NCBI GenBank assembly: GCA_003003615.1
Contig: PVWD01000018.1
Coordinates: forward strand, 1 to 42,948
Reading direction: 5' to 3'
DNA: 42,948 nt
Source of the DNA: a filamentous cyanobacterium CCP2
GTDB taxonomy: Bacteria > Cyanobacteriota > Cyanobacteriia > Elainellales > Elainellaceae
The translations under genes and the position numbers were made by a program. Positions 11,928 through 41,054 of the stretch are shown here, piece by piece. The stretch's first letter is position 1; each line of letters begins with the position of its first letter. The notes below the pieces were generated by a model that worked only from the letters and a program-made list of their open reading frames with translations, was not told the DNA's origin and ran no database searches.

Positions 11928-12776
11928 ACTGAGCTGTTCTGGCTGGTCGATCGTATTCCAGGGCAGGGGCGGAACGGAAACCTGTTGCTGGTCTAGCATT
12001 TGCTGGAAAGAACGGGCGTTGATTGGGGAATACCGCTCGACGGGGCAATGCACAAAGAAATAGACTTGCGTTCCTTGATGCAGCCATTGATTTACTAAGC
12101 CAGCCCATTCCTTCAGGTAAGGCTGATTGAAGTTTGGGTCAGGGTGGCTGATGTAGCGGATCAGGGTGAACGGTGCAGTGACGATCGGCTGTAGCGGAAT
12201 CTGGGGCTTGCGGCGTTCGGAATAAAGTTGGGGGTCATCAGGGCATTCATAAATCGGGCGGGTGTCGAGCAGGACACGTCCAATGCTGAGGTCAGATAGG
12301 CGATCGGTGAGTTGACTGGCATAGGGTTCTTGAAACCAGTCGGGATGGCGGACTTCCAGGGCTAAAGGAAATTCACTGTGGGGAAAAGCCTGGAGAAAGT
12401 GGGTCAGATCACCGATTTGGGCAGGACTGTAGCTGGGAGGCAGTTGGGCAAAGCAGGGGCCAAGCCGATCGCCCAGTCCAGCAATTTGCTTGAGGAAAGC
12501 CAGCGTTTCTGGAATGACGGGGGTGAGGAGTCCGGCGTGGGTAATGCTGCGGGGCAATTTGAGGCAGAACTGAAATCCTTCAGGCGTTTCGGTTGCCCAA
12601 CGGTGAATGGTGTCCGCATCGGGGATGGAATAAAAAGTGGTGTTGCCCTCTACCGTAGTGAAGCGGCGGCTGTAGAGAGACAGAAAATCCTTTGCTTGGC
12701 TGCCTGCCGGAAATAAGCTGCCTATCCACTCCTTGTATGCCCAAACTGCACAGCCCAGTCGAAAATTAAAGTTCAT
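11919..12776 (-). CDS. DUF72 domain protein
   Basis: 285 residues, TIM-barrel-like DUF72 (YecE) family of unknown function. Recognisable blocks are FRLGCAVWAYKEWIGSLFP at the N-terminus, FTTVEGNTTFYSIPDADTIHRWA, FQFCLKLPRSITH, LALEVRHPDWF and a C-terminal segment VYFFVHCPVERYSPINARSF. Its ATG overlaps the stop of the upstream histidine kinase by four bases (ATGA type), so the two are co-transcribed and probably translationally coupled. DUF72 proteins have been suspected of acting on nucleic acids or sugars, but nothing here proves a role. Confidence 0.85.
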   Translation of the reverse strand: MNFNFRLGCAVWAYKEWIGSLFPAGSQAKDFLSLYSRRFTTVEGNTTFYSIPDADTIHRWATETPEGFQFCLKLPRSITHAGLLTPVIPETLAFLKQIAGLGDRLGPCFAQLPPSYSPAQIGDLTHFLQAFPHSEFPLALEVRHPDWFQEPYASQLTDRLSDLSIGRVLLDTRPIYECPDDPQLYSERRKPQIPLQPIVTAPFTLIRYISHPDPNFNQPYLKEWAGLVNQWLHQGTQVYFFVHCPVERYSPINARSFQQMLDQQQVSVPPLPWNTIDQPEQLSLF

Positions 12777-14401
12777 GCTTCAATCTTATAGCCCAACCAC
12801 TTGTCTGAAGCGGATGGCTCGATCGGAGACTGCTCAACCGTAGATGGCTCAGCCGCAGGGGACTTGTGCTGGATGGGAAGCTCAATCCAAAATTCGGTGC
12901 CTTCTCCTGGCTGGGAATAGCATTCTAACGAGCCATTGTGTCGCTCCACAATAATTTGCTGGCTAATAGACAGACCCAACCCCGTGCCCTTACCAGCGGG
13001 TTTAGTGGTAAAAAATGGCTCAAATAGCTTGGCTTGAATCGCTTCTGGAATGCCCAAGGCATTATCGGCAATCCGGATGATCACGCGGGAACTGTTGGTT
13101 TGAGAATCGGGAATTAGCCCGGTGCGGATGGTAATTTGGGGGAATTGTTCGCCTGTTCCCAGCCGATCGCCCACTTCTGCGGCTTCCTCTAGGGCATCAA
13201 TCGCATTGCTGAGGATATTCATAAAGACTTGGTTTAGCTGGCTAGCGTAGCACTCCACCGGCGGCAGTTCACCATATTCTTTGACAATTTTGATGCCAGC
13301 AGCATTCGATCGCGACTTAAAGCGGTGTTGCAAAATCAGCAAGGTATTGTCCAGCCCTTCATGGATGTCTACCGGCTTCATGCCCGCCTCATCTAGCCGC
13401 GAGAAGTTCCGCAATGACAGCACAATCTGCCGAATGCGATCGGCTCCTAACTGCATTGAGGCTAGAATTTTAGGAAAATCCGCCATCAAAAATTCCAAAT
13501 CCAGCTCTTCCATGCGTTCAGCTAATTCAGGGCTGCGCGAGGAATGTTCCTGCTGAAAGAGGGTCAACACTTCCAGTAAATCCTGGGCGTACTGGCTGGC
13601 GTGGGACAAATTGCCGTAGATGAAGTTAACCGGATTATTGATTTCATGGGCAATTCCAGCAACAAGCTGCCCCAAACTCGACATTTTTTCGCTTTGAATC
13701 AGTTGGGTGCGGCTGCGCTTTAGGTCTTCTACAGTCTGAGCCAGAACCTCTGCTTGGCGTTGCGTTTGGGCTAAAAGCTCTGCCTGCTGAATGGCAACGG
13801 CCAAATGGTCAGCAATTTGTTCAACAAACTGAATTTCGTCAGGCTGCCACTCGCGAGGAGCCGAACATTGGTGAATGCAAAGCAGCCCCCATAAACGGTT
13901 CTCTGGACGGAGAGGAACCACCAAATTGGCGCGAATTTGAAATCGCCGCAGGATGTCAACATGGCAATCACGCAGCCCAGCTTGATGGATATCTGAGATC
14001 GCCTGAATGCGTCCAGCCTGGTAGTGAACGGCATACTGTTCGCCAAAGCAATGATCATGCACTCTGGCATTTAATGCAGAATGAAATCCGGGCAGCACAT
14101 CTTCTGAAACAAACTCGCCATCATCCCAATTAGAGTCTGGGTAAAAGCGAAACAGTCCCACGCGATCGGCATTCAGGAGTTGGCGCACTTCTGTGGCGGT
14201 CGTTTGAAAGAGCGAATCGAGATCAAGGGAGGCTCGAATGTTGGTAATAACCCTCAGGAGTGCTTGCTGGCGATGATTCTCTAAGCTTTGCTCTGCGGTC
14301 ATAGGAACCTGATTTGCGTTCACCAGGATTTGCTTCATCCGTTCAAAGGCTGACTCATCGCGGCAACAGTCTCTCAGTCGATCCAGATTATCAAAATTCA
14401 T
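12773..14401 (-). CDS. DXCF-type cyanobacteriochrome histidine kinase
   Basis: About 542 residues: GAF (about 45-205), coiled-coil linker, HisKA and HATPase. The kinase has MSSLGQLVAGIAHEINNPVN with the phospho-accepting His near 252, and a GTGLGLSISQQI ATP lid region. The GAF domain carries both marks of a bilin photoreceptor: DHCF (Cys about 118, the DXCF second cysteine) and AGLRDCHVDILRRFQ (canonical Cys-His about 146-147), followed by IRANLVVPLRPENRLWGLLC. DXCF cyanobacteriochromes bind phycocyanobilin or phycoviolobilin and usually sense blue/violet versus green/teal light. ATG at 14401 is used; a TTG two codons earlier is possible. No response regulator lies directly beside it; DUF72 is its operon partner. 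Confidence 0.85.
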   Translation of the reverse strand: MNFDNLDRLRDCCRDESAFERMKQILVNANQVPMTAEQSLENHRQQALLRVITNIRASLDLDSLFQTTATEVRQLLNADRVGLFRFYPDSNWDDGEFVSEDVLPGFHSALNARVHDHCFGEQYAVHYQAGRIQAISDIHQAGLRDCHVDILRRFQIRANLVVPLRPENRLWGLLCIHQCSAPREWQPDEIQFVEQIADHLAVAIQQAELLAQTQRQAEVLAQTVEDLKRSRTQLIQSEKMSSLGQLVAGIAHEINNPVNFIYGNLSHASQYAQDLLEVLTLFQQEHSSRSPELAERMEELDLEFLMADFPKILASMQLGADRIRQIVLSLRNFSRLDEAGMKPVDIHEGLDNTLLILQHRFKSRSNAAGIKIVKEYGELPPVECYASQLNQVFMNILSNAIDALEEAAEVGDRLGTGEQFPQITIRTGLIPDSQTNSSRVIIRIADNALGIPEAIQAKLFEPFFTTKPAGKGTGLGLSISQQIIVERHNGSLECYSQPGEGTEFWIELPIQHKSPAAEPSTVEQSPIEPSASDKWLGYKIEA

Positions 14402-20138: not shown

Positions 20139-21278
20139 CTACATTGGTAAGCGAACTGTAAACAGACTCCCTTTACCCAATTCCGACTCAGCCTGAATCG
20201 TTCCTCCATGGCCTTCAACAATACACCGAGAGAGATAAAGACCTAACCCACTGTCAGCCCGCTTGTGTTTCCCTTTACGGAATCGCTTAAACAAATTTGC
20301 TTTATCTTCTTGAGAGATGCCTGAACCTGTATCTTCAACTTCCAGAACCATCCAGGACATTGGCTTTGCCCCCACCTGAGAGACATAGTTCTCTGAATGT
20401 TCATAGATCCGAACATGAATCGTTCCGGTATCCGTAAACTTCAGGGCATTGCCAATTAAATTCATCAATACTCGCCTGAGTTCTAGTCGATCGCCCAACA
20501 CAACTGCTTCTTTTTTCCCAGAAGAATTCGGCTCTAATTTTGTCACCAATTGCAAATCAATTCCTTTTTCCTGGGCTAGAGGCTGCAACTCTTGAAAGAT
20601 TTCATGGGCAATTTCATGTAAATCGCAGGGAGCAAACGTTAGCTTTTTTTGGCCGGCTTCATGGCGGTAGACCTCTAACAACGTATTGACCATTTGTAAG
20701 AGGTTGTGGTTGCTGCGAATCATTGCCTCGATCGCCTCTTTCATATCTAGCGAAATTGGACAAAATGTTTCATCTTGAAACAAATGCAGCATGCGATCGG
20801 CCGCGACCAATGGCGTTCTTAAATCGTGCGTTAGCCGAGACACAAAATCTTCTCGTTGGCGAGCCATTGCTTCCCGCTCATCAATACTATGCTTCAAGCG
20901 AAGGAGCGATCGAACTCGCGCTAATAGTTCATCCGTGTCGAATGGTTTGCGAATAAAATCGTCTGCTCCTGCATCCAGTCCTTCGACGACGCTAGACTGC
21001 TCATGGGCCGTGATCAGTAGAATCGGGATGTAGGGTAAAGTAGGGTTTTGTCGAATTCGCCGCGTCACCTCATAGCCATCCATTCCAGGCATCATGATGT
21101 CGAGTAGAATCAAGTCGGGTGGCGACTTTTTGATTTCAGCTAGGGCCTCAGTGCCGTCCTTTGACAGATTAACCTCGTAGCCCTCATCCCCCAAAATTGC
21201 CTCAATCAGGAATAAGTTATCTGGTGTGTCATCGACAGCGAGAACACGACTAGTCCTAGTCATTTGGGCGTGAGGCAT
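20139..21278 (-). CDS. Response regulator-histidine kinase fusion
   Basis: 379 residues: an N-terminal receiver domain (RVLAVDDTPDNLFLIEAIL, phospho-accepting Asp in LILLDIMMPGMDGYEVT, Lys in FIRKPFD), then HisKA with DFVSRLTHDLRTPLVAADRML and a C-terminal ATPase domain with VLEVEDTGSGIS and DSGLGLYLSRCIVEGHGG. There is no membrane segment or sensory domain, so it works inside the cell, taking phosphate or signal through its receiver domain. Start at the first ATG (21278) or the ATG five codons later; neither has a ribosome site. The gap to the next kinase gene, on the same strand, is about 270 bases. Confidence 0.9.
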   Translation of the reverse strand: MPHAQMTRTSRVLAVDDTPDNLFLIEAILGDEGYEVNLSKDGTEALAEIKKSPPDLILLDIMMPGMDGYEVTRRIRQNPTLPYIPILLITAHEQSSVVEGLDAGADDFIRKPFDTDELLARVRSLLRLKHSIDEREAMARQREDFVSRLTHDLRTPLVAADRMLHLFQDETFCPISLDMKEAIEAMIRSNHNLLQMVNTLLEVYRHEAGQKKLTFAPCDLHEIAHEIFQELQPLAQEKGIDLQLVTKLEPNSSGKKEAVVLGDRLELRRVLMNLIGNALKFTDTGTIHVRIYEHSENYVSQVGAKPMSWMVLEVEDTGSGISQEDKANLFKRFRKGKHKRADSGLGLYLSRCIVEGHGGTIQAESELGKGSLFTVRLPM

Positions 21279-21546
21279 GGTTTGTAAACTACTATTTCTA
21301 TGGACTACAGCAAATGCGTTTTATCCTTTTATCTGCCGAATGCAGGATAAGAGGAGACTTTGAAGAAGATATTATTTGTCTATGTTAATATTTTATTCAT
21401 ATTTACCATCTCCCCCATAAGGTAGATTGCCTTTTTATTCTTTGCAAAGTTAAGCGGAACAATCAACCGACATAAAATAGTTATTCTAATAATATAAGTC
21501 TAAATAATCGCAAGGATTTGGTCAGCTTAAGGCTTATACCAACGGT

Positions 21547-22818
21547 TCAGCTTACTTCAGAAGAATCATTTACGTTCAGGTTAAACAGGGTTTCTGAAGC
21601 CATTGGAGGGCAGGGAAATGCGAGTTGGCGAGGGAGATCAACGCGAAAGGTAGAACCTTTACCCACTTGGCTTTCAACCGAAATTTTACCCTGCATCATC
21701 TGTACCAATGAATCTGTAATTGCTAATCCTAATCCTGTTCCGGGATGCTTACGAGTTGTTGTTTGATCAACCTGCCGGAAGGGTTCAAAAATTTGCTTAA
21801 GCTGCTCTTGGGCAATCCCAATCCCAGTATCTCGAACGATGATAGTAATCCGATCGGAAGAGAACAGGCTAACATTTACCCAAACGCCCCCCGCTTCTGT
21901 AAATTTGATTGCGTTAGAAAGCAAATTCACTAACACTTGGCGAAGACGGCTAGGGTCATTCACTACCTGCACATCGGGCGGTTCAACTTTGACCTGAAGC
22001 GACAAATGCTTTTCATCCGCAAGCGATCGTAGCTCCTCGACTGTCGCATTGACAATATGGTTCAAGTTGAATGGTTCCGGCTTAAGTTCTAACCGACCCG
22101 CCTCAATTTTGGAGAGGTCTAAAATATCATTTAAAAGCTCTAATAGATGTTTACCATTATTAAGAATGCGCTCTACCATATCCATTTGGCTTGTGGTTAA
22201 AGTTCCTTTACTGCGCCGTAATAGCAGTTGAGAAAACCCAATAATGGCATTTAAAGGCGTTCGCAATTCATGGGACATCGTAGCTAAAAATTGAGACTTA
22301 AGCTGTGAAGCTTCGATTAACTTTAGGTTTTGCAGTTGAATTTGCTGACGCTGTAGTTCTAACTCCCGATTTTGGCGTTTTAATAGTTCATTACTTTCTC
22401 GAAGCTGTTGATTTGCCACGACTACTTTCATTTCAGCCCGGTAAACCCGAATGGCATTTCGTAACACCTGCTCCAATCGTTCTGGCGTGATTCTAGACTT
22501 AGAAAGATAATCTGTAGCTCCTGCCTTCATTAACTCAACTGCAATTTGTTCATCCCCCTGACCCGTTAGCACAACGAGCGGCACCAACAATCCAAGCTGT
22601 CTTGCATCACGTACCAGAATTAACCCGTCCTGATCAGGCAGTTGATAGTCTAAAAATACACAATCAAATGGGTTGGTTTTCAGCAGTGCGATCGCCTCTG
22701 CATAATTCACTGCTTCAGAAAGTTCCATTGGCAGACTTGCCTTCTTTAAGGCCCGTCGTACCGCCATGCGATCGACTTCATCATCATCAACAACGAGAAC
22801 CCGTAGCGTTTCTTCCAT
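21547..22818 (-). CDS. Response regulator-histidine kinase fusion with coiled coil
   Basis: About 423 residues: receiver domain (RVLVVDDDEVDRMAVRRAL, Asp in CVFLDYQLPDQDGL, Lys in DYLSKSRIT), a coiled-coil linker rich in Glu, Gln and Leu (about 140-185), HisKA with FLATMSHELRTPLNAIIGFS, and a HATPase domain with IIVRDTGIGI and HPGTGLGLAITDSLVQMM. Soluble, with no sensory domain. The ATG at 22818 is chosen; a TTG four codons upstream is possible. Together with the kinase at 20139 and the response regulator at 24310 it forms a signalling neighbourhood whose input is not visible. Confidence 0.9.
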   Translation of the reverse strand: MEETLRVLVVDDDEVDRMAVRRALKKASLPMELSEAVNYAEAIALLKTNPFDCVFLDYQLPDQDGLILVRDARQLGLLVPLVVLTGQGDEQIAVELMKAGATDYLSKSRITPERLEQVLRNAIRVYRAEMKVVVANQQLRESNELLKRQNRELELQRQQIQLQNLKLIEASQLKSQFLATMSHELRTPLNAIIGFSQLLLRRSKGTLTTSQMDMVERILNNGKHLLELLNDILDLSKIEAGRLELKPEPFNLNHIVNATVEELRSLADEKHLSLQVKVEPPDVQVVNDPSRLRQVLVNLLSNAIKFTEAGGVWVNVSLFSSDRITIIVRDTGIGIAQEQLKQIFEPFRQVDQTTTRKHPGTGLGLAITDSLVQMMQGKISVESQVGKGSTFRVDLPRQLAFPCPPMASETLFNLNVNDSSEVS

Positions 22819-23366
22819 AAGTAGGTTCAAAGAATCAGGAGTGCTTCAATCCTATCGTTAACCTTAAATTCATCAGGTCACCACTCCGACATAGAATTCA
22901 GGCAATAAAGGCAAGGTGAGCCACCCGCTACAGATAATTGCTCACGGAAGATCCACCTACTCATGAGCGAGGATATGCGGGAATGACTGCTCAACCCCTA
23001 TATCTAACGTTAGATCTTTCTGGGAAATTATTAATTAATTCTTAAGCCAAAAGGAGGATGCATGATTTTATCAATCCTCTACCTCTAGAGAGGGATTTTA
23101 CAGAAATATGAAAATACACCATTGGATGAATGCTCTCAAACTGTACTAGCAGATAGCTTTGAAACTAGTGTACAACTTATTATTCAAGAAGCTGAAAAAT
23201 GCACTGCTATCATCAACCCTGGAGGTTGCTTACCGAGACAGCTTACCAACAATTGCTCACTCACACGATCGTCTAATCGTTTGAAGGATGCCATTGGTGA
23301 AAGCTTATACGAGGAGAAGATTTCCAGCTTGCTGATAGCGGTCTATTTTTCAGGGAGGCAACTTGT
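22819..23366. other. Intergenic region upstream of the DUF2294 pair
   Basis: About 550 bases. An AAGGAGG motif at about 23050 precedes a tiny frame (MILSILYL) that stops at TAG, and other very short frames overlap one another. A longer frame at 23122-23370 has only a TTG start and I do not accept it as a gene. Confidence 0.4.
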
Positions 23367-23888: not shown

Positions 23889-24332
23889 ATGAGCTATCCC
23901 ATTGAACTACGCCAGCAGCTAACGCACCCTTTGCAGGAAAAGCTTCAAGCTCTCTACCAAACCCAGCTTGGACATCAGCCCAGCAAAATTACCTGCCAAT
24001 TATTTGATAAAACGCTGGCAATTGTTATCAAAGATCCTGTAACTCAACTGGAGAAGCTTCTCCTTGCCAACGGACAGCAAGATTTGGCTCAACGAGTCCG
24101 CACCAGCCTGGAGAAGCTACTACGCCCACAGCTCAAGTCTATGATTGAGCAGGTTGTTCATGTAGATGTTGTGGATTTAATGGTAGATACGCATCTGCAC
24201 ACAAACCATACAAGCATCATTGCAGTTTTCGCAGATGCACCGCAGTTTCCTACACCGAATGGCTCTTCGCCCAACCGGGTTGAACCGTTCCCGTCTCCAA
24301 ATGCCGCTTTTAACGGAGATGACGACGAATAG
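23889..24332 (+). CDS. DUF2294 protein, second of a tandem pair
   Basis: 147 residues, clearly a duplicate of the gene before it: KLQALYQTQLGHQPSKITCQ aligns with the first copy, as do TLAIVIKDPVTQ and RPQLKSMIEQVV. It differs in its disordered C-terminus, which ends in an acidic GDDDE tail. It has no strong ribosome site, so it may depend on translation of the first copy. Its last 23 bases overlap the convergent response-regulator gene. Function unknown. Confidence 0.8.
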   Translation: MSYPIELRQQLTHPLQEKLQALYQTQLGHQPSKITCQLFDKTLAIVIKDPVTQLEKLLLANGQQDLAQRVRTSLEKLLRPQLKSMIEQVVHVDVVDLMVDTHLHTNHTSIIAVFADAPQFPTPNGSSPNRVEPFPSPNAAFNGDDDE

Positions 24333-24747
24333 CTGCTTCCAAATCATCTAGCATATACGGCTTGCTAACGTAATCGACGAAACCAGCCAGGAGCAGATTT
24401 TCTCGATCTTCTAGCTTGGCAAGGGCCGTTACTGCAATCACCGGGATGTCCCTGGTTGCTTCGTCCTGCTTCAGGTGCTGAACAAGCTGAATACCATCAA
24501 CATTCGGCAACAAAATATCCATCAAAATTAGATCGGGCTTACACTCTTTTGCAGTGTGTAACGCATTACGACTGTCTTCTTGTCCCACAAAGCGGCAACC
24601 AAATGACTCCAGCGCATAGCGAATGAGCAGGAGATTATCGTCGTCATCTTCGACAACTAGAATGAGCGGATGCGTGGTAGCGGGCTGGTGTACACAGCAA
24701 GAATCAGATTGGTGTACCAAGTAAGGCAATGGGAGTGCCGAGTCCAT
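24310..24747 (-). CDS. Stand-alone CheY-like response regulator
   Basis: About 145 residues with a single receiver domain from about residue 28: LILVVEDDDDNLLLIRYALE (acidic pocket), LILMDILLPNVDGIQL (phospho-accepting Asp), VIAVTALAK (Thr) and YVSKPYM (Lys). No output domain. The ATG at 24747 is chosen because GGAGG lies about 11 bases upstream; ATG 24765 and GTG 24804 are alternatives that lengthen an unstructured N-terminus. The end overlaps the second DUF2294 gene tail-to-tail by 23 bases. It may be the partner of one of the nearby receiver-kinase fusions. Confidence 0.87.
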   Translation of the reverse strand: MDSALPLPYLVHQSDSCCVHQPATTHPLILVVEDDDDNLLLIRYALESFGCRFVGQEDSRNALHTAKECKPDLILMDILLPNVDGIQLVQHLKQDEATRDIPVIAVTALAKLEDRENLLLAGFVDYVSKPYMLDDLEAAIRRHLR

Positions 24748-25180
24748 GTGCCTCAGAACCTCCATATTACAATGCTGTTCGGTGAATTGAGACGGACGAG
24801 GCACTCTTGAAGCGGTCGAAGCGCTAGGAACAGACTGGCTCGTATCTTGTTGGCTCCAGGTTGTTCAAATCTGCCCGCGAAACAAAGAGAGGAAGAATGA
24901 AGCAAGCTGGATAAGGACAAGCGATTCGCCAATTATACAGAAAAGGGGCGAGAAATTAATATTAGTTTAATAATTGTGAACAACTCCCAGTTTACCGGAT
25001 TTTCAGCGAAGTGCAAGTTCAACTGAGCATTGTCCGTCGATCGCAGAATCGCTCTTAATAAAGATGCAGACCATGACTCAATTTTTTTCTTAAATTTCAT
25101 TTTCAGTCCGTTGGGCAGTCAATCAGGTTAGCATCGGTACGAAGGGGGTAAAGCCCCTTGTGATTGCGAAGGAACGTTAC
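24748..25180. other. Intergenic region upstream of queD
   Basis: About 430 bases without a visible gene. A hairpin sits just before the queD ribosome site (25142-25159). I looked for a preQ1-I riboswitch and did not find its A-rich tail or loop. Confidence 0.45.
25142..25159 (+). promoter_or_regulatory. Hairpin in the queD leader
   Basis: AAGGGG-GTAAAG-CCCCTT, a perfect 6-bp stem with a 6-base loop, ending about 12 bases before the GAAGGA ribosome site of queD. It may influence translation of the operon; not a recognised riboswitch. Confidence 0.4.
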
Positions 25181-29682: not shown

Positions 29683-32600
29683 TCACGAAGCATTCGATCT
29701 GAATTCGGTTTTAGCTCCGAGGGATTGGAGAGCTTGCATTTGCGCCTCAGAAAGTCCGATCGCATTGGCAATACACATTCCCTCATAGGGGCGAGGAAGT
29801 CTCAGCGTTTGGCAGTGAGACGTTTCAAGCCGGTCTGCATCCAAGTTCCAAACCCGAATTGTGGCATCCTGACCACAGCTAATCAACGGGTTTCCTTGGG
29901 GGTGAAACGCCAGCGATCGCACCCACTTTTGATGACCCATAAGCGTCTGACGACAGGTGAACGTATTTACATCCCAAAGCTTTACAGTACGATCACCACT
30001 ACAAGTTGCAAGGGTCTGGCCATCGGGGCTAAAGGCCACAGCCAGCAGTAAACTATTGTGCGCCTCCCAGGATTGATGCGTCTGCTGTTGCAGATCCCAA
30101 AGTTTAACCTGTCCGTTTGAGCCGCCGCTAGCCAGATAGCGTCCGTTTGGGCTGAAGGCTAGACCACGAATCCAACAATTATGCCCAGTCAGCACTTGTT
30201 GACATTCTCCCGTTGCCACATCCCAAAGCCGAATGGTGCGATCCTGGCTGCCACTGGCAAGAGTACGTCCATCGGGACTGACGGTAATCGCCCAAATGCC
30301 GCGAGTGTGTCCAGTGAGCGATCGGAAACTGTGATTGGTTGTGAAATTCCAAAACTTAATGGTGCCATCTAGGCTGCCGCTAGCTACCCATTCCCCTTGG
30401 GGGTCGATCGCCACTGACCAGACTTCATGCTGATGCTCATCCCAAATTCTTTGCAGTTCTCCCGTTTGCCCATCCCATAGTCGCACAGTGCGATCTTCAC
30501 TGCCGCTCACCAACCAGCGACCATCTGCACTGAATGCCACCGACAACACCCAGCCATCATGTCCGGGAAGCGCGTTTTGCAAAACTCCAGTTGTTAAATC
30601 CCAAAACCGCAAACAGCGATCCTGTCCACCACTCACCAGAGTCCGACCATCGGGACTGAGTGCCACCGACCACACGCCATTATTATGTCCCTGCAAGACT
30701 TTCAAAACCTGCTGAGTTTGGCTATCCCACAGCCGAACAGACTGATCTTCGCTGCCGCTAGCGAGAGTTTGCCCATCTGGACTGAAGGCTAAGCTAGAAA
30801 TCCAACTGCTGTGTCCGGTGAGGGTGCTGATCAGTTGACCAGAAGCCGCATCCCAGAGGCAAATCATCGGATCATCACTGCCACTGGCCAGGGTGCGACC
30901 ATTGGGGCTAAAGGCAACCGTGCGAACTTGCTGCTGATGCCCAGTCAAAACGTGGCGGCATTCTCTGGTAGACATCTCCCACAGGCGAACGGTGCGATCG
31001 CGGCTGCCGCTGGCTAGGGTTTGGCCATCGGGGCTAAAGGCAACCGACAACACCGGAGCCGTTCCCGTTGACCAGGTATCCAGACAAGTCCCGGTTGTTA
31101 AATCCCACAATTTGAGGCGACCATCATGACTACCGCTAACGAGTTGATGCCCTTCACTGGGGGATGGGGGAAATGGAGAGGCAAGCCGAGGAGTTTGATA
31201 ATTTTGGGGAGCAAAGGCAACGGTTCTCACCTCGTCAGAATGTCCTGCCAATTGCCAGACCAGCCTTCCGGTACGAACTTCCCAAACGCGGATCTGGTGA
31301 TCTTCGCAGCCGCTGGCCAGATAGCATCCGTCTGGGCTAAAAGACAAGGCAAACACCCGCCCTTCGGAGCCGCGCAGTTCACCCTGAGATTCGCCCGTCG
31401 CCAAATCCCAGAGATGTACCACCCCATTTGCACTGCCTGCCAATGTGCGGCCGTTGGGGCTAATGGCGATCGCCCAACACCAACCATCTTTAGCATTAAA
31501 CGTGCGGAACGGCTGGGTTTCAGCTCCGCGCCAAACATGAATTTCATAGCTGATATCGCTTGCCACTAAATACTCACCATCTGGGCTGAAGGCAACCGAA
31601 AGCACCTGACTAAACGTTTCCTTGAAAACCGATCGATTCAGGTCAGAGCCGCTAAAGTTGACCCTTTGCAGCGAGGCATGGCGGAGATCGGCTTGCCAAA
31701 TGCGTAGCTCGGAAAAGTCCCAGCCCTGAAGGTCAGTGGGAATCTGTTGCAGCAGATTGATCACATTTCCGCCACTGTAACCCTGTTCCTTGAGGGGTTG
31801 CTGTCGCCAAGCGGTGAGGAGGTGCTGACATCCGGCGGCAATGGCTGCGGGGCGATGCTGTTGCAAAAGTTGCTGTACGATCGGTTGCAGAATCAGCCGT
31901 TTTTGGGTGTGGCAAAGATAGTCTTTTGTTTGGGTTTGAATTAGCCCATAGTGGTGCAGGCTGGGAGGTAAGGTCGGTGAGGGTTCGGGCGTGAGGGCTG
32001 GGGCAGAAACGGCAGGCGGCCAGGCTAATTGATGCGTCGAGACGACTGTCTGGTGAATCCACTGGCTCAATTCTTGGCTGACCTGAGCCACCAATCGATC
32101 GGTGACATATTCCATGACCGCAGGCTGAAGGGTAAACCGACCCCGATATTTTTCAATCAGCGATCGGCGTTCTAAAGCGGTGAGAGCTTCGAGCAAATGC
32201 CCTAGGGGTAAAGGTGGCAGCAGGGCAGCCCGGAGTTGGTTGAGCGAAATCGGCTCTCGGTGAATGGCTAACCAGGTCATCACCTGCTGTTCTAAAGGCG
32301 AAAGGCGATCGAACTGACCCGCCAACAGATCTTGAATATCGCCAAAAATCGAGTTTCCCTGCTGTAAAACCTCCAGGAATGGGGCAATATGCCCTTCAAA
32401 GCAATCTTGAATCACAGGAGCCACCAGCTTCAACGCCAGCGGATTTCCGGCATAGTGAGCCACTAGCTCTGCCCAATCATCATGCAACCCCGTGAAAGTG
32501 CCTTTCGCATGGCAAAGGGCTTGTCCGGCATCAGGGTCTAACCCACTTAACCGCAACGATCGCACAGGCAGCAGAATTCCCTCATGGGCAACCAGTTCCT

Positions 32601-33447
32601 TCGGCTTTTCGCGGCTGGTCAAAATGACAATACTCTGATGCGGCATTGCCCCTAAATGGTGGAGTAGCTGGCCATATTCCTCATAACCTGGCTGATAATG
32701 CCCCGTCCGATCGCCCGCTTGCAAAATCGCCTCCAGGTTATCCAAGATCAGCAACAGCCGCCGTTGTCGCAGGTGGGCCAGGAAGTGACGCAATTGATCG
32801 GCAAACGAGAGGGAACGTTCATTGGAATGGGGCTGCAAAACCTGTAGGACATCTGCCAAAAAGACCTCCGGGAGCGGAGCATGACGAATCGATCGCCAAA
32901 TCACCCCCTCAAACTGAGGTTGCAGCTGCTGGGCCAGCTTCACCGAAAGCGTTGTTTTCCCCATTCCCCCCATCGCAAAAATCCCAACCAGCCGACAGCG
33001 ATCGGTTAAAACCCAATGATTCAAGACTTGCAACTCTTCGCTGCGACCATAGAAAACCGAAACGTCTGGTGCTTCCCCCCAATCCACCGGATTGCTAAAC
33101 GTTAGTGGCACTGTTGCAGGCGGGTGATTCGGCTTGAAAGGCGACGAACTCGCGCTCTCTTGATAATGCTGTTCTAAAACGCGATGCAAATTTCGTTTCG
33201 TTACCTTTTGCCCCAACGCCTCAGAAAGCTGCTGCCACAGCCCCGACCCCGTTTGCTTAACATAGCTCACCTCATATCCCGCTGTTTTAGCAATCTCCTG
33301 ATAGGAACGATCGCCCCAGGACTGCTCAAACACAAGCACCTGAAGCGGACTAAGACGACTCGCAAGAATTTGCTCCACAAAGCGCAAGGCGGATTGGGCA
33401 TCCAAGGAAAACTGATGGGGGAGAGGCTGAATAACAAAATGGCTCAT
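29683..33447 (-). CDS. NB-ARC (STAND) ATPase with 14 WD40 repeats
   Basis: About 1254 residues. Order: an N-terminal helical domain with HTH look (SYQEIAKTAGYEVSYVKQT, about 1-95), NB-ARC ATPase with Walker A IFAMGGMGKTTLSVKLAQQ (about 157-174), Walker B LLLILDNLEAI (about 231-241) and GNPLALK (about 334-340), a winged-helix/helical arm, a short pentapeptide-like stretch (about 572-611), then 14 WD40 repeats (about 613-1210), enough for two seven-blade propellers, and the tail RPYEGMCIANAIGL. STAND ATPases act as switches that oligomerise when the sensor (here WD40) meets a ligand; in cyanobacteria the targets are mostly unknown, with signalling, cell death or phage defence suggested. ATG 33447 is chosen by family start; no ribosome site. 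Confidence 0.9.
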   Translation of the reverse strand: MSHFVIQPLPHQFSLDAQSALRFVEQILASRLSPLQVLVFEQSWGDRSYQEIAKTAGYEVSYVKQTGSGLWQQLSEALGQKVTKRNLHRVLEQHYQESASSSPFKPNHPPATVPLTFSNPVDWGEAPDVSVFYGRSEELQVLNHWVLTDRCRLVGIFAMGGMGKTTLSVKLAQQLQPQFEGVIWRSIRHAPLPEVFLADVLQVLQPHSNERSLSFADQLRHFLAHLRQRRLLLILDNLEAILQAGDRTGHYQPGYEEYGQLLHHLGAMPHQSIVILTSREKPKELVAHEGILLPVRSLRLSGLDPDAGQALCHAKGTFTGLHDDWAELVAHYAGNPLALKLVAPVIQDCFEGHIAPFLEVLQQGNSIFGDIQDLLAGQFDRLSPLEQQVMTWLAIHREPISLNQLRAALLPPLPLGHLLEALTALERRSLIEKYRGRFTLQPAVMEYVTDRLVAQVSQELSQWIHQTVVSTHQLAWPPAVSAPALTPEPSPTLPPSLHHYGLIQTQTKDYLCHTQKRLILQPIVQQLLQQHRPAAIAAGCQHLLTAWRQQPLKEQGYSGGNVINLLQQIPTDLQGWDFSELRIWQADLRHASLQRVNFSGSDLNRSVFKETFSQVLSVAFSPDGEYLVASDISYEIHVWRGAETQPFRTFNAKDGWCWAIAISPNGRTLAGSANGVVHLWDLATGESQGELRGSEGRVFALSFSPDGCYLASGCEDHQIRVWEVRTGRLVWQLAGHSDEVRTVAFAPQNYQTPRLASPFPPSPSEGHQLVSGSHDGRLKLWDLTTGTCLDTWSTGTAPVLSVAFSPDGQTLASGSRDRTVRLWEMSTRECRHVLTGHQQQVRTVAFSPNGRTLASGSDDPMICLWDAASGQLISTLTGHSSWISSLAFSPDGQTLASGSEDQSVRLWDSQTQQVLKVLQGHNNGVWSVALSPDGRTLVSGGQDRCLRFWDLTTGVLQNALPGHDGWVLSVAFSADGRWLVSGSEDRTVRLWDGQTGELQRIWDEHQHEVWSVAIDPQGEWVASGSLDGTIKFWNFTTNHSFRSLTGHTRGIWAITVSPDGRTLASGSQDRTIRLWDVATGECQQVLTGHNCWIRGLAFSPNGRYLASGGSNGQVKLWDLQQQTHQSWEAHNSLLLAVAFSPDGQTLATCSGDRTVKLWDVNTFTCRQTLMGHQKWVRSLAFHPQGNPLISCGQDATIRVWNLDADRLETSHCQTLRLPRPYEGMCIANAIGLSEAQMQALQSLGAKTEFRSNAS

Positions 33448-33603
33448 TGCGTGGATTCTAGCGATCGCTGTAACGCAACTTTGTAGCCAGCACAACACTT
33501 TTCCGAAGAGCAACACCGAATTTCGCACCTCGATCGCACCTCGATCGCACCTTGAGCCAGAGGCAATCCCATTACTCTGACATTAATCAAAATCAAAAGA
33601 TTG

Positions 33604-33734: not shown

Positions 33735-34904
33735 ATGAGGACACGCCCACCATTTCCGCTTTCTCGTCGTCAAGTCTTACGCGGTCTGCTGGCCACCAGC
33801 GCCTTTGGGTTGACCGTAAAACTCGGAGCCTGCGCTGATTCCTCTGCTGGCGGTGGAGGAGGTAGTGCCGATAATCTCGTCATGGGCTTTGTTTACGTCG
33901 GCCCCCGCGATGATTATGGTTACAACCAGGCCCATGCTGAAGGTCATGATCATGCTTCGACGCTGGAGGGAGTCACGACTGTTGAAGAAGCGAACGTACC
34001 CGAAACCACTGCCGTTCAAGAATCGATTCGCAGCATGATTGATTTGGACGGAGCATCGGTGATTTTTGCCACCTCCTTTGGCTACTTTGATCCCCATGTG
34101 CTGGCTCTGGCAGAGGAATATCCTGATGTGCAGTTCTTTCACTGCGGCGGACTGTACCAAGAGGGCGTTCATCCTGAAAATGTGGGCAGCTACTTTGGCT
34201 ACATTGACGAAGCCCAGTACATTGCAGGCATTGTGGCGGCCCATGCTTCCAATAGCAAGCGACTCGGCTTCATTGCCGCTAAACCGATTCCCCAAGTGCT
34301 CCGCAATATTAACAGCTTCACGTTAGGGGCACGCAGCATTGATCCTAGCGTGACGACCCAGGTGATTTTCACAGGCGATTGGTCGTTGCCGGTGCGGGAA
34401 GCAGAAGCCGCCAACAGTATGGCCGATCAAGGAGTGGATGTTCTGACTTGCCATGTGGACAGTCCCAAGGTAGTGGTTGAAACGGCAGAACGTCGGGGCA
34501 TTTTCTCATCGGGATACCACGCCAATCAGGTGGATCTGGCTCCGACTGGATATTTAACTGGAGCAGAGTGGAACTGGGCTGGCGTGTATGAGCAGTATGT
34601 CCAGATGATTCAGGAGGGCAAAACCTTGATGAATGGCGGCATTCCCCATCTGGTGCGGGGCGGACTCCAGGAAGAATTTCTCAAGCTGTCGCCCTATGGT
34701 TCTGCGGTGAGTGAAGAGGCGAAAAAAGCGGCGGATGCAGCCAAAGCGCAGATCGTGTCGGGGGAATTGGTAATTTATGACGGTGAAATCAAAGATAACC
34801 AGGGCACTGTGGTGATTGAAAACGGGAAGAAATTAGAGCAGACGGCCCTAGAACTGGAGCAAATGGATTGGCTGGTGGAAGGCGTGTCCGGCAGCGTTGG
34901 GTAA
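33735..34904 (+). CDS. BMP-family ABC transporter substrate-binding lipoprotein
   Basis: 389 residues, extracytoplasmic binding protein of the Med/PnrA/BMP family, whose members bind nucleosides, purines or related heterocycles. The N-terminus has a twin-arginine motif (SRRQVLRG) and a lipobox-like LGAC with Cys about 33. Family blocks include NLVMGFVYVGPRDDYGYNQA, SVIFATSFGYFDP, FFHCGG, VGSYFGYIDEAQYIAGIVAA and KRLGFIAAKP. Strong ribosome site AAGGAGG. First of nine plus-strand genes; followed after 63 bases by its permeases. The usual double ATPase of this importer class is not next to it. Confidence 0.9.
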   Translation: MRTRPPFPLSRRQVLRGLLATSAFGLTVKLGACADSSAGGGGGSADNLVMGFVYVGPRDDYGYNQAHAEGHDHASTLEGVTTVEEANVPETTAVQESIRSMIDLDGASVIFATSFGYFDPHVLALAEEYPDVQFFHCGGLYQEGVHPENVGSYFGYIDEAQYIAGIVAAHASNSKRLGFIAAKPIPQVLRNINSFTLGARSIDPSVTTQVIFTGDWSLPVREAEAANSMADQGVDVLTCHVDSPKVVVETAERRGIFSSGYHANQVDLAPTGYLTGAEWNWAGVYEQYVQMIQEGKTLMNGGIPHLVRGGLQEEFLKLSPYGSAVSEEAKKAADAAKAQIVSGELVIYDGEIKDNQGTVVIENGKKLEQTALELEQMDWLVEGVSGSVG

Positions 34905-34967
34905 TTACTGGAGTAAAACGCGGGTGAAACGCGGGTGAAATACTGGGTCAATTACTGGTAAATTACA

Positions 34968-36059
34968 ATGACAATTTCCTGGCGCAGTCAATTAGAAAAA
35001 GTTTGTATCCCGATCGGCGCGCTTTTGGTTTCGTTGATCATTTTCGGAGTATTTTGTGCGTTTGCTGGAGCCAATCCGTTTGGGGTATATCATTCGATCT
35101 ACCGCGCGGCTTTTGGCACGTGGGGGTCATTTCAAAATACGCTGATTCGGGCGGCTCCGCTAATGCTGAGTTCCCTCTGTACCCTGCTGCCTGCTCGATT
35201 AGGACTGGTGATTATTGGCAATGAAGGGGCGATCGTGATTGGCGGTGTGGCGGCTGTGGCGGCGGGATTAACCCTGGCAGATTTTGGTTTGCCCACTCTG
35301 ATGATTCAACTGGGCATGGCCCTTGCTGGAATGCTGATTGGCGGATTGTGGATTGGAGCGGTCGGAGCATTGCGCCATTATCGAGCGGTGAACGAAACGA
35401 TTAGCAGCTTGTTGCTGAACTATATTGCGATCGCCTTGATGAATCATCTGGTGAATGGCCCGATGCGCGATCCCAGTTCGCTGAATAAACCATCGAGTTT
35501 CCCAATTCCCGATGTACATATGCTGGGAAATTTACCCGGTACGCGAGTCCATTATGGCTTGCTCTATGGCATCATTGCTTGCGCGATCGCCTATTTCTTG
35601 ATTCAGCGCACCACCTTTGGTTTTGCGGCTCGTACGGCAGGAGGCAATATTCGGGCTGCCCGGTTGGCAGGATTACCCGTCGGCAAGTTAACTATGGCGA
35701 TTTGCTTCCTGGCGGGTTCCTGTGCGGGGTTAGCGGGTATGGTGGAAGTGGCGGCGGTTCACGGCCGGGCTAATGAGTCCCTGAATGCGAACTATGGCTA
35801 TGGTGGGGTGCTGGTGGCTTTCATCGCCCGGCAAAATCCCTTGGCAGCAAGCCTGGTTTCCCTACTGTTGGGTGGCATTCTGGCTAGTGGCGGCATTCTC
35901 CAACGATCGCATAACTTACCCGATGCAACGGTTCTGGTGTTTCAAGGCATTGTCTTTTTGGTGGTGCTGTTTAGCGATTCTCTCTACGGCAAGCTAGCCA
36001 TTTTTCAAGCGCGATCGGTTTCTTTGCCTCCTGCTGCTCCTGCTGCCACCAGCGTTTAG
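34968..36059 (+). CDS. ABC permease, purine/nucleoside type (YufP-like)
   Basis: 363 residues with about nine hydrophobic helices, first permease of a BMP-type importer. Recognisable segments are MLSSLCTLLPARLGLVIIGNEGAIVIGG, AVNETISSLLLNYIAIALMN (the conserved NETI block) and GGNIRAARLAGLPVGK followed by GSCAGLAGMVEVAAVHGRAN. The leader has a doubled ACGCGGGTGAA. No strong ribosome site. The stop codon is directly followed by a dispersed repeat. Works with the permease at 36216 and the binding protein at 33735. Confidence 0.9.
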   Translation: MTISWRSQLEKVCIPIGALLVSLIIFGVFCAFAGANPFGVYHSIYRAAFGTWGSFQNTLIRAAPLMLSSLCTLLPARLGLVIIGNEGAIVIGGVAAVAAGLTLADFGLPTLMIQLGMALAGMLIGGLWIGAVGALRHYRAVNETISSLLLNYIAIALMNHLVNGPMRDPSSLNKPSSFPIPDVHMLGNLPGTRVHYGLLYGIIACAIAYFLIQRTTFGFAARTAGGNIRAARLAGLPVGKLTMAICFLAGSCAGLAGMVEVAAVHGRANESLNANYGYGGVLVAFIARQNPLAASLVSLLLGGILASGGILQRSHNLPDATVLVFQGIVFLVVLFSDSLYGKLAIFQARSVSLPPAAPAATSV

Positions 36060-36160
36060 GGACGGGCAAGATGCCCATCCCACAAGAGCCAGAAGGACGG
36101 GCAAAAGAGGCCTATCCCACGAGAGTTCTAGTCAGTAGGGTGGGCACTGCCCACCAAAAT
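36060..36160. repeat. Cluster of three dispersed repeats between the permease genes
   Basis: Reverse copy of the GGGCATCTTGCCC family at 36060-36086 directly after the permease stop, a diverged copy at 36095-36125, and a GTAGGGTGGGCACTGCCCACC element at 36135-36158. Confidence 0.75.
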
Positions 36161-36215
36161 TCAGTGTCAACTGAGTGTCGTTCACCGCATTAAAAATTTT
36201 TCATGGAGAATTGCG

Positions 36216-37142
36216 ATGAGTGCAGATTTGGGTTGGTGGGGTGTTCCCCTTGCCATTCTGGCCGGAACCTTACGCGGCAGTGCTCCGTTTCTGTTTGTCA
36301 GTTTGGGCGAATGTTTGACGGAAAAGAGCGGCAAAATCAACCTGGGCTTAGAAGGCTCCTTGCTGATGGGAGCCATGAGTGCCTATGCCATTTCCTATTT
36401 GACGGGTTCTCCCTGGACAGGAGTAATTGTGGCGGGGATTGCTGGAATGGCTTTAGGGGGCATCCACGGCTGGCTGGCTCAACAACCTCGCGTCAACGAT
36501 GTGGCCGTCGGCATCGCTATGATCATTTTTGGCAGCGGCCTCGCCTTTTTCCTGGGTAAGCCGTTTATTCAACCTGTCGCACCTCAACTTCCCTCGATCG
36601 CCTTTGGCAGTTGGAGTAGCAGTCCCCAGCTTGAGTCCGCCCTGCGCGTGTCGCCATTGTTCATTCTAGGAGTCCTGATTGCGCCCTTGATGCAGTGGTT
36701 TTTCCGTTCCACTCGCTGGGGTTTACTCGTTCGGGCCGTGGGAGACAGTCCCGATGCGGCCAGAGCAATGGGCATTTCCATCTTCAAAGTGCGGCTACTT
36801 AGCATTATGGTGGGCAGTGCGTTGGCGGGAGTTGGTGGAGCGTTTCTCTCGCTGTATTACCCGGGCAGTTGGACAGAGCGGATTTCCAGTGGACAGGGTT
36901 TGATGGCGGTAGCATTAGTCATTTTCGCCCGATGGAACCCCATGCAGTGTCTTTATGCTTCCCTACTGTTTGGCGGTGCCCAGGCGATCGGCCCTGCGTT
37001 GCAATCCGTTGGGGTAGATGCTTACTACTACCTGTTCAACGCCTCACCCTACATCCTGACCCTACTGATCATGATTATCACCTGTTCACCTAAACGCACC
37101 CTAACCGGAGTTCCTGGTGCATTGGGTCAAACCCAAGAGTGA
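36216..37142 (+). CDS. ABC permease, purine/nucleoside type (YufQ-like)
   Basis: 308 residues, about eight to nine hydrophobic helices, second permease of the BMP-type importer. Segments LRGSAPFLFVSLGECLTEKS, GKINLGLEGSLLMGAMSAY (the conserved NLGLEG block) and RAVGDSPDAARAMGISIFKV, then GVGGAFLSLYYPGSW, are typical. Ribosome site TGGAGAA before the ATG. Separated from the first permease by about 155 bases filled with dispersed repeats, so the operon may have been stretched by repeat insertion. Confidence 0.9.
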   Translation: MSADLGWWGVPLAILAGTLRGSAPFLFVSLGECLTEKSGKINLGLEGSLLMGAMSAYAISYLTGSPWTGVIVAGIAGMALGGIHGWLAQQPRVNDVAVGIAMIIFGSGLAFFLGKPFIQPVAPQLPSIAFGSWSSSPQLESALRVSPLFILGVLIAPLMQWFFRSTRWGLLVRAVGDSPDAARAMGISIFKVRLLSIMVGSALAGVGGAFLSLYYPGSWTERISSGQGLMAVALVIFARWNPMQCLYASLLFGGAQAIGPALQSVGVDAYYYLFNASPYILTLLIMIITCSPKRTLTGVPGALGQTQE

Positions 37143-37163
37143 TTCATCAGAACATTCCAAAAC

Positions 37164-37199
37164 TCTTGTGGAGTGGGCATCTTGCCCCCCAGTCCATCC
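37164..37199. repeat. Dispersed repeat, GTGGAGTGGGCATCTTGCCC copy
   Basis: Forward copy just after the second permease. It lies inside an open frame that would extend the following gene upstream, a reason to reject that longer start. Confidence 0.75.
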
Positions 37200-37260
37200 A
37201 GCTTCACCCTGTTCAAACGATCGAATTCCATCATCCCAAGCTGTAAACCAAGCAAAGACG

Positions 37261-37755
37261 GTGATTCAACCTATTTCCTCTCAAAATCTATCTTCTCAAA
37301 ATCCATCCTCTCAAACCCGATCGACTCCTGCTCCGGTTGCCCCTACCCATCTGCATTTAGCCGTGAATGGAACCCTCATGCGCGGACTTGCTCTAAACGG
37401 CAACCTGAAAGCGATCGGAGCCACCTATCTCCGAGAAGCGAAAACGGCTCCTGTATATCGGCTCTGGTCTATTCAAGACTGCTATCCAGCGATGTTGCGA
37501 GTGGCAGAAGGGGGAGCGGCGATCGATTTAGAAATTTGGGCGATTCCCGCGATCGGTTTAGGAACTTTATTGCTTCAGGAACCGCCTGGACTGTGTATTG
37601 GCAAAGTTGAATTAGAGAATGGTGAACAAGTGCTCGGTGTCCTGGGTGAGCCTTACTGCTGTGAAGCGGGGCAGGAAATTACTCAGTGGGGGGGATGGCG
37701 TGCCTACTGCCAATCTCGTGAAATGCCTGTAACTGTTCAGGTGGGTGAAAACTGA
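37261..37755 (+). CDS. Stand-alone allophanate hydrolase C-terminal (AtzF-C) domain protein
   Basis: About 164 residues. After a low-complexity Ser/Gln/Asn head (15-bp repeats encoding NLSSQ, NPSSQ) comes a domain matching the C-terminal part of allophanate hydrolase: HLAVNGTLMRGLALNGNLKA, a TAPVYRLWSI block, then AIDLEIWAIPAIGLGTLLLQ and GLCIGKVELENGEQVLGVLG. In AtzF this domain handles the N-carboxycarbamate made by the amidase half. No amidase half is encoded nearby. The GTG at 37261 is a guess; a GTG at 37117 would read through a dispersed repeat, and ATG 37378 is too short. Neighbours are a formamidase and a biuret-hydrolase-like gene. Confidence 0.72.
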   Translation: MIQPISSQNLSSQNPSSQTRSTPAPVAPTHLHLAVNGTLMRGLALNGNLKAIGATYLREAKTAPVYRLWSIQDCYPAMLRVAEGGAAIDLEIWAIPAIGLGTLLLQEPPGLCIGKVELENGEQVLGVLGEPYCCEAGQEITQWGGWRAYCQSREMPVTVQVGEN

Positions 37756-37882
37756 AAGAATGCCGATACCGTAAAATCGATAACTTTTCTCATCTCCTTT
37801 CTCTCCGAAAATTAGGTTCAAATCATGTAAATCAGCAATCATTCCTCTATCTTCCTTCTTTTTAATTTTCATTGCTCTATCC

Positions 37883-37920
37883 GCACTCCCCACTCCCCAT
37901 TCCCTATTTCCTAATCCCCT
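37883..37920. repeat. Short tandem CACTCCC repeat
   Basis: CACTCCCCACTCCCCATTCC then CTATTTCCTAATCCCC, reverse-orientation relative of the heptamers at 2878. Confidence 0.55.
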
Positions 37921-37951
37921 CTCTTTCCCAGTCGTTTACTAGAAAATTCCT

Positions 37952-38989
37952 ATGTCAGGACTTGGTGGATTAAATAAATCTCCTCAAGGTGTTGTACTTG
38001 GATTAGTGCAGTTGCAAAATCCGATCGTTGTAACACCTGATGACCTTGCAGCCCAGACTCAACGGGTTGTTGAGTTGGTTGGTAAGGCGCGGCGCAATTT
38101 ACCCAGTATGGATCTGGTAGTGTTTCCTGAATATGCTCTGCATGGGCTGTCGATGGACACGAATCCAGAAATTATGTGTCGGTTGGATGGGCCGGAGGTG
38201 ATTGCTTTTCAAACTGCCTGTCGGGATAATCAAATCTGGGGTTGCTTTTCCATCATGGAGTACAACCCTCATGGGAATCCTTACAACAGTGGGTTGATCA
38301 TCGATAATCACGGTGAGTTGAAGCTTTACTATCGCAAACTTCATCCCTGGGTTCCGGTTGAACCGTGGGAGCCGGGTAATCTGGGTATTCCTGTCTGCGA
38401 AGGGCCCAATGGCAGCACGATCGCTCTGATTATCTGCCACGATGGGATGTTTCCTGAAATGGCGCGAGAATGCGCCTACAAGGGGGCGGAAATTATGATT
38501 CGCACGGCGGGTTACACAGCACCGATTCGTCATGCCTGGCAGATCACCAATCAGGCGAATGCTTTCTGTAATTTAATGGACACAGCTTCTGTCTGTCTCT
38601 GCGGCAGCGATGGCACCTTTGATTCGATGGGCGAAGGAATGTTTGTTCGATTTGATGGTACGCCTTTAGTCATGGGTAGCCACCGTCCTGATGAAATTAT
38701 TACGGCTGAATTGCGTCCCGATTTAGTCCGGGAAGCTCGTCACCATTGGGGCGTTGAAAATAATCCTTACCAGTTTGGGCATCGGGGCTATGTAGCAGTA
38801 AAAGGTGGAGCGCAAGATTGTCCCTACACCTACATGCAGGATTTGGTCAACGGTCATTATCACCTGCCCTGGGAAGCAGAAGTGATCCACACCGATGGCA
38901 CTTCCTGCGGGTTTCCCCCTCCCACTCGCCTTTATCGTGGCGAAGAATTACCCACGATTCCCGCTTCCCTCACCACTAAACCATCCTGA
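37952..38989 (+). CDS. Formamidase-type nitrilase-superfamily amidase
   Basis: 345 residues. Hydrolyses a short amide (formamide in the closest known enzyme, AmiF) to acid and ammonia. The Glu-Lys-Cys triad is visible: LVVFPEYALHGL (Glu 60), LYYRKLHPW (Lys 129) and LIICHDGMFPEMA (Cys 162). Blocks SIMEYNPHGNPYNSGLIID and VPVEPWEPGNLGIPVCEGP closely resemble Helicobacter AmiF as I remember it, more than aliphatic amidase AmiE. No clear ribosome site precedes the ATG. It follows the AtzF-C gene by about 200 bases and precedes the biuret-hydrolase-like gene. Confidence 0.88.
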   Translation: MSGLGGLNKSPQGVVLGLVQLQNPIVVTPDDLAAQTQRVVELVGKARRNLPSMDLVVFPEYALHGLSMDTNPEIMCRLDGPEVIAFQTACRDNQIWGCFSIMEYNPHGNPYNSGLIIDNHGELKLYYRKLHPWVPVEPWEPGNLGIPVCEGPNGSTIALIICHDGMFPEMARECAYKGAEIMIRTAGYTAPIRHAWQITNQANAFCNLMDTASVCLCGSDGTFDSMGEGMFVRFDGTPLVMGSHRPDEIITAELRPDLVREARHHWGVENNPYQFGHRGYVAVKGGAQDCPYTYMQDLVNGHYHLPWEAEVIHTDGTSCGFPPPTRLYRGEELPTIPASLTTKPS

Positions 38990-38997
38990 ATCATCAC

Positions 38998-39030
38998 TCT
39001 TGTGGGGTGGGCATCTTGCCCGCCCAGTCC
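38998..39030. repeat. Dispersed repeat, GTGGGGTGGGCATCTTGCCC copy
   Basis: Forward copy (CTTGTGGGGTGGGCATCTTG then CCCGCCCAGTCC) in the gap between the formamidase and the cysteine hydrolase. Confidence 0.8.
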
Positions 39031-39055
39031 CCCTATCCCCTCATGGAGGTAACAT

Positions 39056-39742
39056 ATGGGATGTTTTATTGAAGCTGATCCCTATCCCTATCCCTACAAC
39101 GGAGATTTGCGCCCAGAAAATACGGCTCTGATCATCATCGACATGCAGACGGACTTCTGCGGCATTGGTGGCTATGTGGATAAAATGGGCTATGACCTGA
39201 GCCTGACCCGTGCCCCGATCGAACCAATTCAGAAAGTGCTGAGTTTAATGCGCGATCGAGGGTTTCACATTATTCATACCCGTGAGGGCCATCGCCCAGA
39301 TTTATCGGATCTCCCCGAAAACAAGCAGTGGCGATCGCAGCAAATTGGTGCAGGGATTGGTGATGTGGGCCCCTGTGGGCGGATTCTGGTGCGGGGTGAA
39401 CCCGGTTGGGAAATTATTCCTGAACTTCAGCCCCTTCCTGGAGAAGTAGTGATCGACAAACCCGGCAAAGGTTCCTTCTACGCCACTGATCTTGATTTAA
39501 TTTTAAAGCGCAAAAACATTCAAAATATTATCCTGACTGGCATCACAACTGATGTTTGTGTCCATACCACCATGCGAGATGCCAACGATCGCGGTTACGA
39601 GTGTCTGTTGTTATCAGACTGTACTGGAGCGACGGATTATGGGAACTATCTCGCTGCACTGAAAATGATCAAAATGCAGGGTGGGGTTTTTGGCGCGGTG
39701 GCTGACTCCCATGCATTGATTGAGGCTCTGATCACGGGATGA
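39056..39742 (+). CDS. Biuret hydrolase-type cysteine hydrolase (isochorismatase family)
   Basis: 228 residues. Matches biuret amidohydrolase (BiuH), which turns biuret into allophanate and ammonia. The triad is visible as Asp 29 ([13 protein letters not shown]), Lys 135 ([11 protein letters not shown]) and Cys 168 ([14 protein letters not shown]), a constant seven-residue offset from the Asp36/Lys142/Cys175 I recall for the Rhizobium enzyme. [20 protein letters not shown] and [17 protein letters not shown] are nearly family-invariant. RutB-type ureidoacrylate hydrolase is less similar. A good ribosome site (TGGAGG) precedes the ATG. The product allophanate would be a substrate for allophanate hydrolase, whose C-terminal domain is encoded two genes upstream. 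Confidence 0.85.
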
Positions 39743-39791
39743 GCGATCGTTTTGCGGGGTAGTACTCACTCTATCCTGCTGCTATTTTTGA

Positions 39792-39815
39792 TGGTGGGCA
39801 GTGCTTACCCTACTT
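39792..39815. repeat. GGTGGGCAGTGCTTACCCTAC repeat
   Basis: Copy of the GGTGGG..CCCACC family between the cysteine hydrolase and the second binding protein. Confidence 0.65.
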
Positions 39816-39875
39816 CTATTTATTATTCCGATTTTTCTCCTTTATCTATTCTTAATCTACCCCAGAAACTTTACC

Positions 39876-40916: not shown

Positions 40917-40967
40917 TTGGGGAAGGCTGAGGATTGAATCCAGCATGAAAATGGCTTGAACTAAAGC

Positions 40968-41054
40968 TCTTGTGGGGTGAGCATCTTGCCCGCCCAGCCA
41001 ATCAAGTCTTATCAGTTCTTGTGGGGTGGGCATCTTGCCCGCCCAGTCAATCAA
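40968..41054. repeat. Two tandem copies of the GTGGGGTGGGCATCTTGCCC repeat
   Basis: Both read CTTGTGGGGTG(A/G)GCATC then TTGCCCGCCCAG(C/T)CAATCAA, 11 bases apart, nearly identical, suggesting recent duplication. Confidence 0.85.

Follow-up and report, generated by a model that had tools for sequence, protein, structure and literature searches.

The locus comprises two co-directional genes on the minus strand of the window (the whole 42,948-nucleotide stretch of DNA analyzed here), a histidine kinase gene and, immediately downstream, a gene for a DUF72 (YecE-type) protein (table 1). The 4-bp overlap that the first-pass annotation reported between them is exact: the kinase stop codon (TGA, 12775-12773) and the DUF72 start codon (ATG, 12776-12774) interlock as ATGA. 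The kinase reading frame opens with an ATG at 14401, which a TTG precedes at a distance of six bases. Its product has the makeup of a two-component histidine kinase, with a phosphoacceptor histidine in HisKA and N, G1, F, and G2 boxes in HATPase_c; kinase competence is not certain, because the G1 box is atypical (DNALGIP vs. the usual DNGxGIP). The downstream protein belongs to DUF72 by both profile score (198.8 bits against a curated cut-off of 25.3) and TIM-barrel fold, and its gene is the single DUF72 match in its own genome.

Table 1. Features of the kinase-DUF72 locus, with positions in the window.
Feature	Position	Strand	Evidence
Histidine kinase gene, 542 aa (N-terminal extension, GAF (CBCR), HisKA, HATPase_c)	12773..14401	-	ORF, Pfam
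GAF domain, cyanobacteriochrome type, residues 60-204	13790..14224	-	Pfam PF01590 1.3e-25; best PDB relatives all CBCR GAFs
DHCF motif, residues 116-119, second Cys C118	14045..14056	-	DHCF/DRCF/DYCF in 12/12 linked kinases with readable GAF
Canonical Cys146-His147, expected bilin A-ring attachment	13961..13966	-	Aligned with Cys-His of 6oap
HisKA dimerization/phosphoacceptor domain, residues 243-338, H-box GIAHEINNP, His252	13388..13675	-	Pfam PF00512 1.2e-8
HATPase_c catalytic domain, residues 387-511, N-box NQVFMNILSNAID, F-box FEPFFTTK, G2-box GKGTGLGL	12869..13243	-	Pfam PF02518 9.6e-25
4-bp ATGA overlap, kinase stop/DUF72 start	12773..12776	-	Sequence
DUF72 (YecE-type) TIM-barrel protein, 285 aa	11919..12776	-	Pfam PF01904 1.6e-58; AF2 model pLDDT 82.7; best solved matches 1vpy/1ztv/1vpq

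Within the window, no response regulator gene adjoins the kinase, and the partner regulator is therefore taken to be unlinked. Two response-regulator/histidine-kinase fusions (20139-22830, minus strand) and a lone response regulator (24310-24804, minus strand), about 6 to 12 kb away, are possible partners. Elsewhere, the window encodes a protein of 1281 aa in which 13 or more WD40 repeats follow a probable NTPase region (29683-33528, minus strand) and, on the plus strand at 33735-42826, a BMP-type binding protein, two permeases, an allophanate-hydrolase C-terminal domain protein, a carbon-nitrogen hydrolase, an isochorismatase-fold hydrolase, an NMT1-like binding protein and an ABC ATPase, a cluster that looks like one for amide-nitrogen scavenging.

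The GAF Domain and Its Two Cysteines

The first-pass annotation read the GAF domain as a cyanobacteriochrome (CBCR) of the DXCF class, with both a DHCF motif and the canonical Cys-His, and both are indeed in place, C118 and C146 being separated by 28 residues. The same spacing separates C494 and C522, the bilin-bound cysteines of TePixJ (PMC6955287). Across all six reading frames of the window there are four D-x-C-F strings, and only the one in the kinase GAF has a Cys-His/Tyr at the right distance. Among the DUF72-linked kinases, the 12 whose GAF can be read (the window's own among them) all carry both cysteines, with Cys-Tyr in locus L043, which argues that they are not there by chance. The leading PDB relatives of the domain in a single-sequence search are all CBCR GAFs or fluorescent proteins derived from them, namely 6oap (4.7e-43), 8k9o, miRFP670nano, RcaE, and chains that we take to be TePixJ and AnPixJ-type; a profile built from ten DUF72-linked GAFs matches 6oap at 3.2e-55. 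A single-sequence AlphaFold model of the GAF (pLDDT 40.5) was too poor and was set aside. The domain is homologous to solved CBCR GAFs and carries the second and canonical cysteines at homologous positions. With CBCR-only solved relatives, the motif, the spacing, and the conservation of both cysteines all in agreement, the DXCF assignment is well supported at the level of sequence, and a short-wavelength CBCR with two thioether links is very likely.

The GAF domain of TePixJ (DXCF, PDB 4glq) and its relatives likewise combine a DXCF second cysteine and a canonical cysteine in a lone GAF with 28-residue spacing, although TePixJ is a membrane-bound chemotaxis-type protein and the window protein is a soluble histidine kinase. 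The closest solved GAF by sequence, that of the dual sensor histidine kinase 6oap, aligns at the canonical Cys-His but reads DQYF at the DXCF position, with no second cysteine there, where the window reads DHCF. The extended red/green (XRG) CBCRs, such as AnPixJ-type GAFs (3w2z), share the GAF superfamily and the canonical cysteine with the window domain. Their lineage is defined by a WXDXXL motif (PMC11284453), however, and the window GAF reads VHDHCF in its place, with a second cysteine; it therefore fits the DXCF class and not the XRG class.

A CBCR-like domain that has given up photochemistry and serves as an apo or redox sensor would accord with the loss of one or both cysteines in some unlinked relatives (L115, L122, L124, and L125). 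We regard this as most improbable for the window protein, in which, as in all linked kinases whose GAF can be read, both cysteines, the DXCF aspartate, and the spacing are intact, and whose genome encodes a member of the ferredoxin-dependent bilin reductase family (Fe_bilin_red, PF05996, 1.9e-78), a family that covers PcyA and its sister reductases.

We hypothesize that the product of the upstream gene is a two-component photoreceptor kinase, soluble and equipped with one DXCF CBCR GAF domain. By analogy with TePixJ, for which the mechanism is established, and with the wider family, C146 would attach phycocyanobilin, probably isomerized to phycoviolobilin, and C118 would form a reversible adduct at C10, so that the dark state would absorb violet/blue light and the photoproduct would be of the green (or teal) type. 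Autophosphorylation of His252 and phosphotransfer to the unlinked response regulator would then change on photoconversion.

Distribution and Decay of the Gene Pair

The first-pass annotation proposed looking for the pair in other genomes and held that a lack of conservation would refute the link. Each protein was accordingly searched against 98 genomes, those of the window and of its relatives, and 60 loci around DUF72 and the 36 genomes of the window's family were examined (L, G, and g numbers denote loci, genomes, and genera, respectively). Counting the window (g1), 13 genomes from nine genera of the family have the kinase immediately upstream of DUF72 and in the same orientation (the other 12 are L038 in G007, L039 in G006, L040 in G023, L043 in G025, L044 in G002, L045 in G011, L049 in G031, L053 in G012, L054 in G033, L056 in G004, L094 in G019, and L096 in G028, the last counted though cut by a contig end). 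Two further loci hold decayed kinase remnants beside DUF72 (L052 in G030, with the GAF deleted, and L069 in G022, with 201 aa and no H-box), and a kinase or remnant accompanies DUF72 in 14 of the 32 other family DUF72 loci (corrected from a raw 15, which took in the non-adjacent kinase of L077; G026:C684, a probable contamination that differs very little from the kinase of G033, was left out of the counts). At the junctions the two genes overlap or are separated by up to about 110 bp, and ATGA also occurs at those of L039, L052, and L094. One linked kinase (L053, 710 aa) has two DXCF GAF domains in tandem and is similar in length to the unlinked orthologs L105, L107, L111, L119, and L123 (707-751 aa).

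DUF72 itself is found in 34 of the 36 family genomes and is also common outside the family, mostly without a kinase. No paired locus occurs among the 28 outside loci examined, which argues against a pan-cyanobacterial pair, and a scan of named genomes with P0002 returned eight DUF72 relatives, none beside a kinase. Other window neighbors of DUF72 are retained less often than the kinase in the 32 other family loci (GDT1b in seven, GDT1a in four, CxxCxxCC in three, and recD2 in one), a comparison that concerns near neighbors only, as the fetched flanks limit more distant genes; RecD2 is thereby ruled out as part of a conserved unit. The second most frequent neighbor is an ABC transporter of ~666 aa (ABC_membrane_2/SbmA_BacA-like), found at 11 family loci (including L039:4595-6646), which starts roughly 1 kb past the DUF72 start on the downstream side and is missing there in the window.

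The linked kinases fall within one well-supported clade of 22 rows (98/95), which also holds unlinked family orthologs. Genus g5 displays stepwise loss of the kinase beside DUF72: it is intact in G004 and G033, GAF-less in G030, and reduced to a remnant in G022, and in G035 none was found next to DUF72. No kinase was found beside DUF72 in L037 or L075, and it is missing from G005 though present in the congener G023. In L044 the kinase half of the protein is degraded, with loss of the N-box and F-box, and the DRCF/Cys-His GAF is retained; judged from its motifs, the protein is possibly a light sensor without kinase activity. Since the kinase decays stepwise beside a near-universal DUF72, it looks like an accessory to DUF72 and not a requirement. 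DUF72 linkage does not account for retention of the cysteines, because unlinked family orthologs mostly keep both (in the unlinked g17 pair L115/L122 both motifs are lost).

These data allow for a pairing that has no functional meaning, one that arose when an ancestor of the family placed the kinase before DUF72 and that was then simply inherited, with repeated losses. The restriction of the pair to one family among the genomes examined, the repeated decay of the kinase, the unrelated neighbors of DUF72 elsewhere, and the seven changes in linkage (remnants included) on the DUF72 tree, where deep support is weak, against a shuffled mean of 12.1, are all as this would predict; however, the other near neighbors in the window have been reshuffled more, and the junctions have stayed tight or overlapping in different genera. 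We consider pairing by descent a serious possibility, a little short of even. The reading that we favor, with some confidence, is that the DXCF CBCR kinase acts as a soluble photoreceptor and the overlapping DUF72 protein as its light-linked effector or companion. The overlapping genes would probably be co-transcribed and translationally coupled, and the dosage or activity of DUF72 in this role would most likely be adjusted jointly with the sensor.

The coupling of kinase to DUF72 proposed in the first-pass annotation thus stands as a conserved co-directional, sometimes overlapping arrangement across nine genera of a single family. It is not an obligatory link, the kinase having been lost repeatedly. 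Functional coupling is plausible, but the pairing does no more than suggest it, because DUF72 is mostly found on its own and several times a kinase beside it has been lost or degraded.

What the DUF72 Protein May Do

The AF2 model of the window DUF72 protein matches the solved DUF72/YecE structures (Tm1631, 1vpq; EF0366, 1vpy and 1ztv) at Z 21-22. Among the matches listed, the next-best folds are sugar epimerases and related isomerases at Z 14-15 (8z1i 14.9, 2ou4 14.6, and 8xiv 14.5), and no endonuclease IV appears among the 50 structure matches listed. Such a ranking, drawn from a model, does not favor a nuclease over a sugar isomerase, and both readings therefore stand. Unlike known DUF72/YecE systems, the window gene overlaps that of a photoreceptor kinase.

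One candidate is a sugar-phosphate isomerase/epimerase-like enzyme, co-expressed with the light sensor to adjust carbon metabolism to light. Besides the fold matches (Z 14.5-14.9), it finds support in the invariant E141, D171, and H243, which lie where strands 5, 6, and 8 are predicted to end, the places of metal ligands in the sugar isomerase/epimerase-like superfamily. Identity to these enzymes is only ~7-11%, however, a TIM barrel in common shows no function, and the DUF72 crystal structures contain no metal (PMC3828134); we judge this candidate unlikely.

Another is light-controlled handling of DNA lesions, with DUF72 as an endonuclease IV/UVDE-like lesion binder raised or modulated by the short-wavelength sensor under damaging near-UV/blue light. 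Published proposals, both computational, are that Tm1631 binds DNA lesions, with pyrimidine dimers suggested (PMC3828134), and that DUF72 is enriched near polB2 and has a fold close to UV-damage endonuclease (PMC11791011). The residues N44, K72, Q114, and R145 of Tm1631, proposed to hold phosphate (PMC3828134), align with N45, K73, Q111, and R143 of the window protein, which are invariant in nine DUF72 sequences, including one from Glaciecola. The model also matches SacUVDE (3tc3), and in the window the kinase is preceded upstream by a gene for a RecD2 helicase. However, the SacUVDE match (Z 12.7) is outscored by the sugar epimerases, the two-tyrosine motif of Tm1631 (Tyr47-Tyr48) is Phe48-Tyr49 in the window protein, nuclease activity has been shown for no DUF72 protein in the literature surveyed, the RecD2 neighborhood is kept in one of the 32 loci, and no DNA-repair gene recurs beside DUF72 in the loci examined. 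A role in lesion handling thus seems improbable, and direct control by the DXCF CBCR kinase of a DUF72 protein acting on light-induced lesions, whereby a bilin photoreceptor would anticipate UV damage through a co-encoded repair factor, is highly doubtful.

A literature search that scarcely covered subscription journals returned no paper naming both cyanobacteriochrome and DUF72, nor any naming both cyanobacteriochrome and UV-damage endonuclease. The CBCR kinase by itself is ordinary, and the pair is a moderately interesting lead on DUF72; present in nine genera of a single family yet often lost, it is a modest, testable clue and no new kind of system. If true, the lesion-repair reading would join bilin photosensing to DNA maintenance. 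DUF72 is widespread without a shown function, and its pairing with a light sensor suggests a condition, violet/blue versus green light, under which a phenotype may be sought, with the naturally paired, decayed, and unpaired genomes as a set for comparison.
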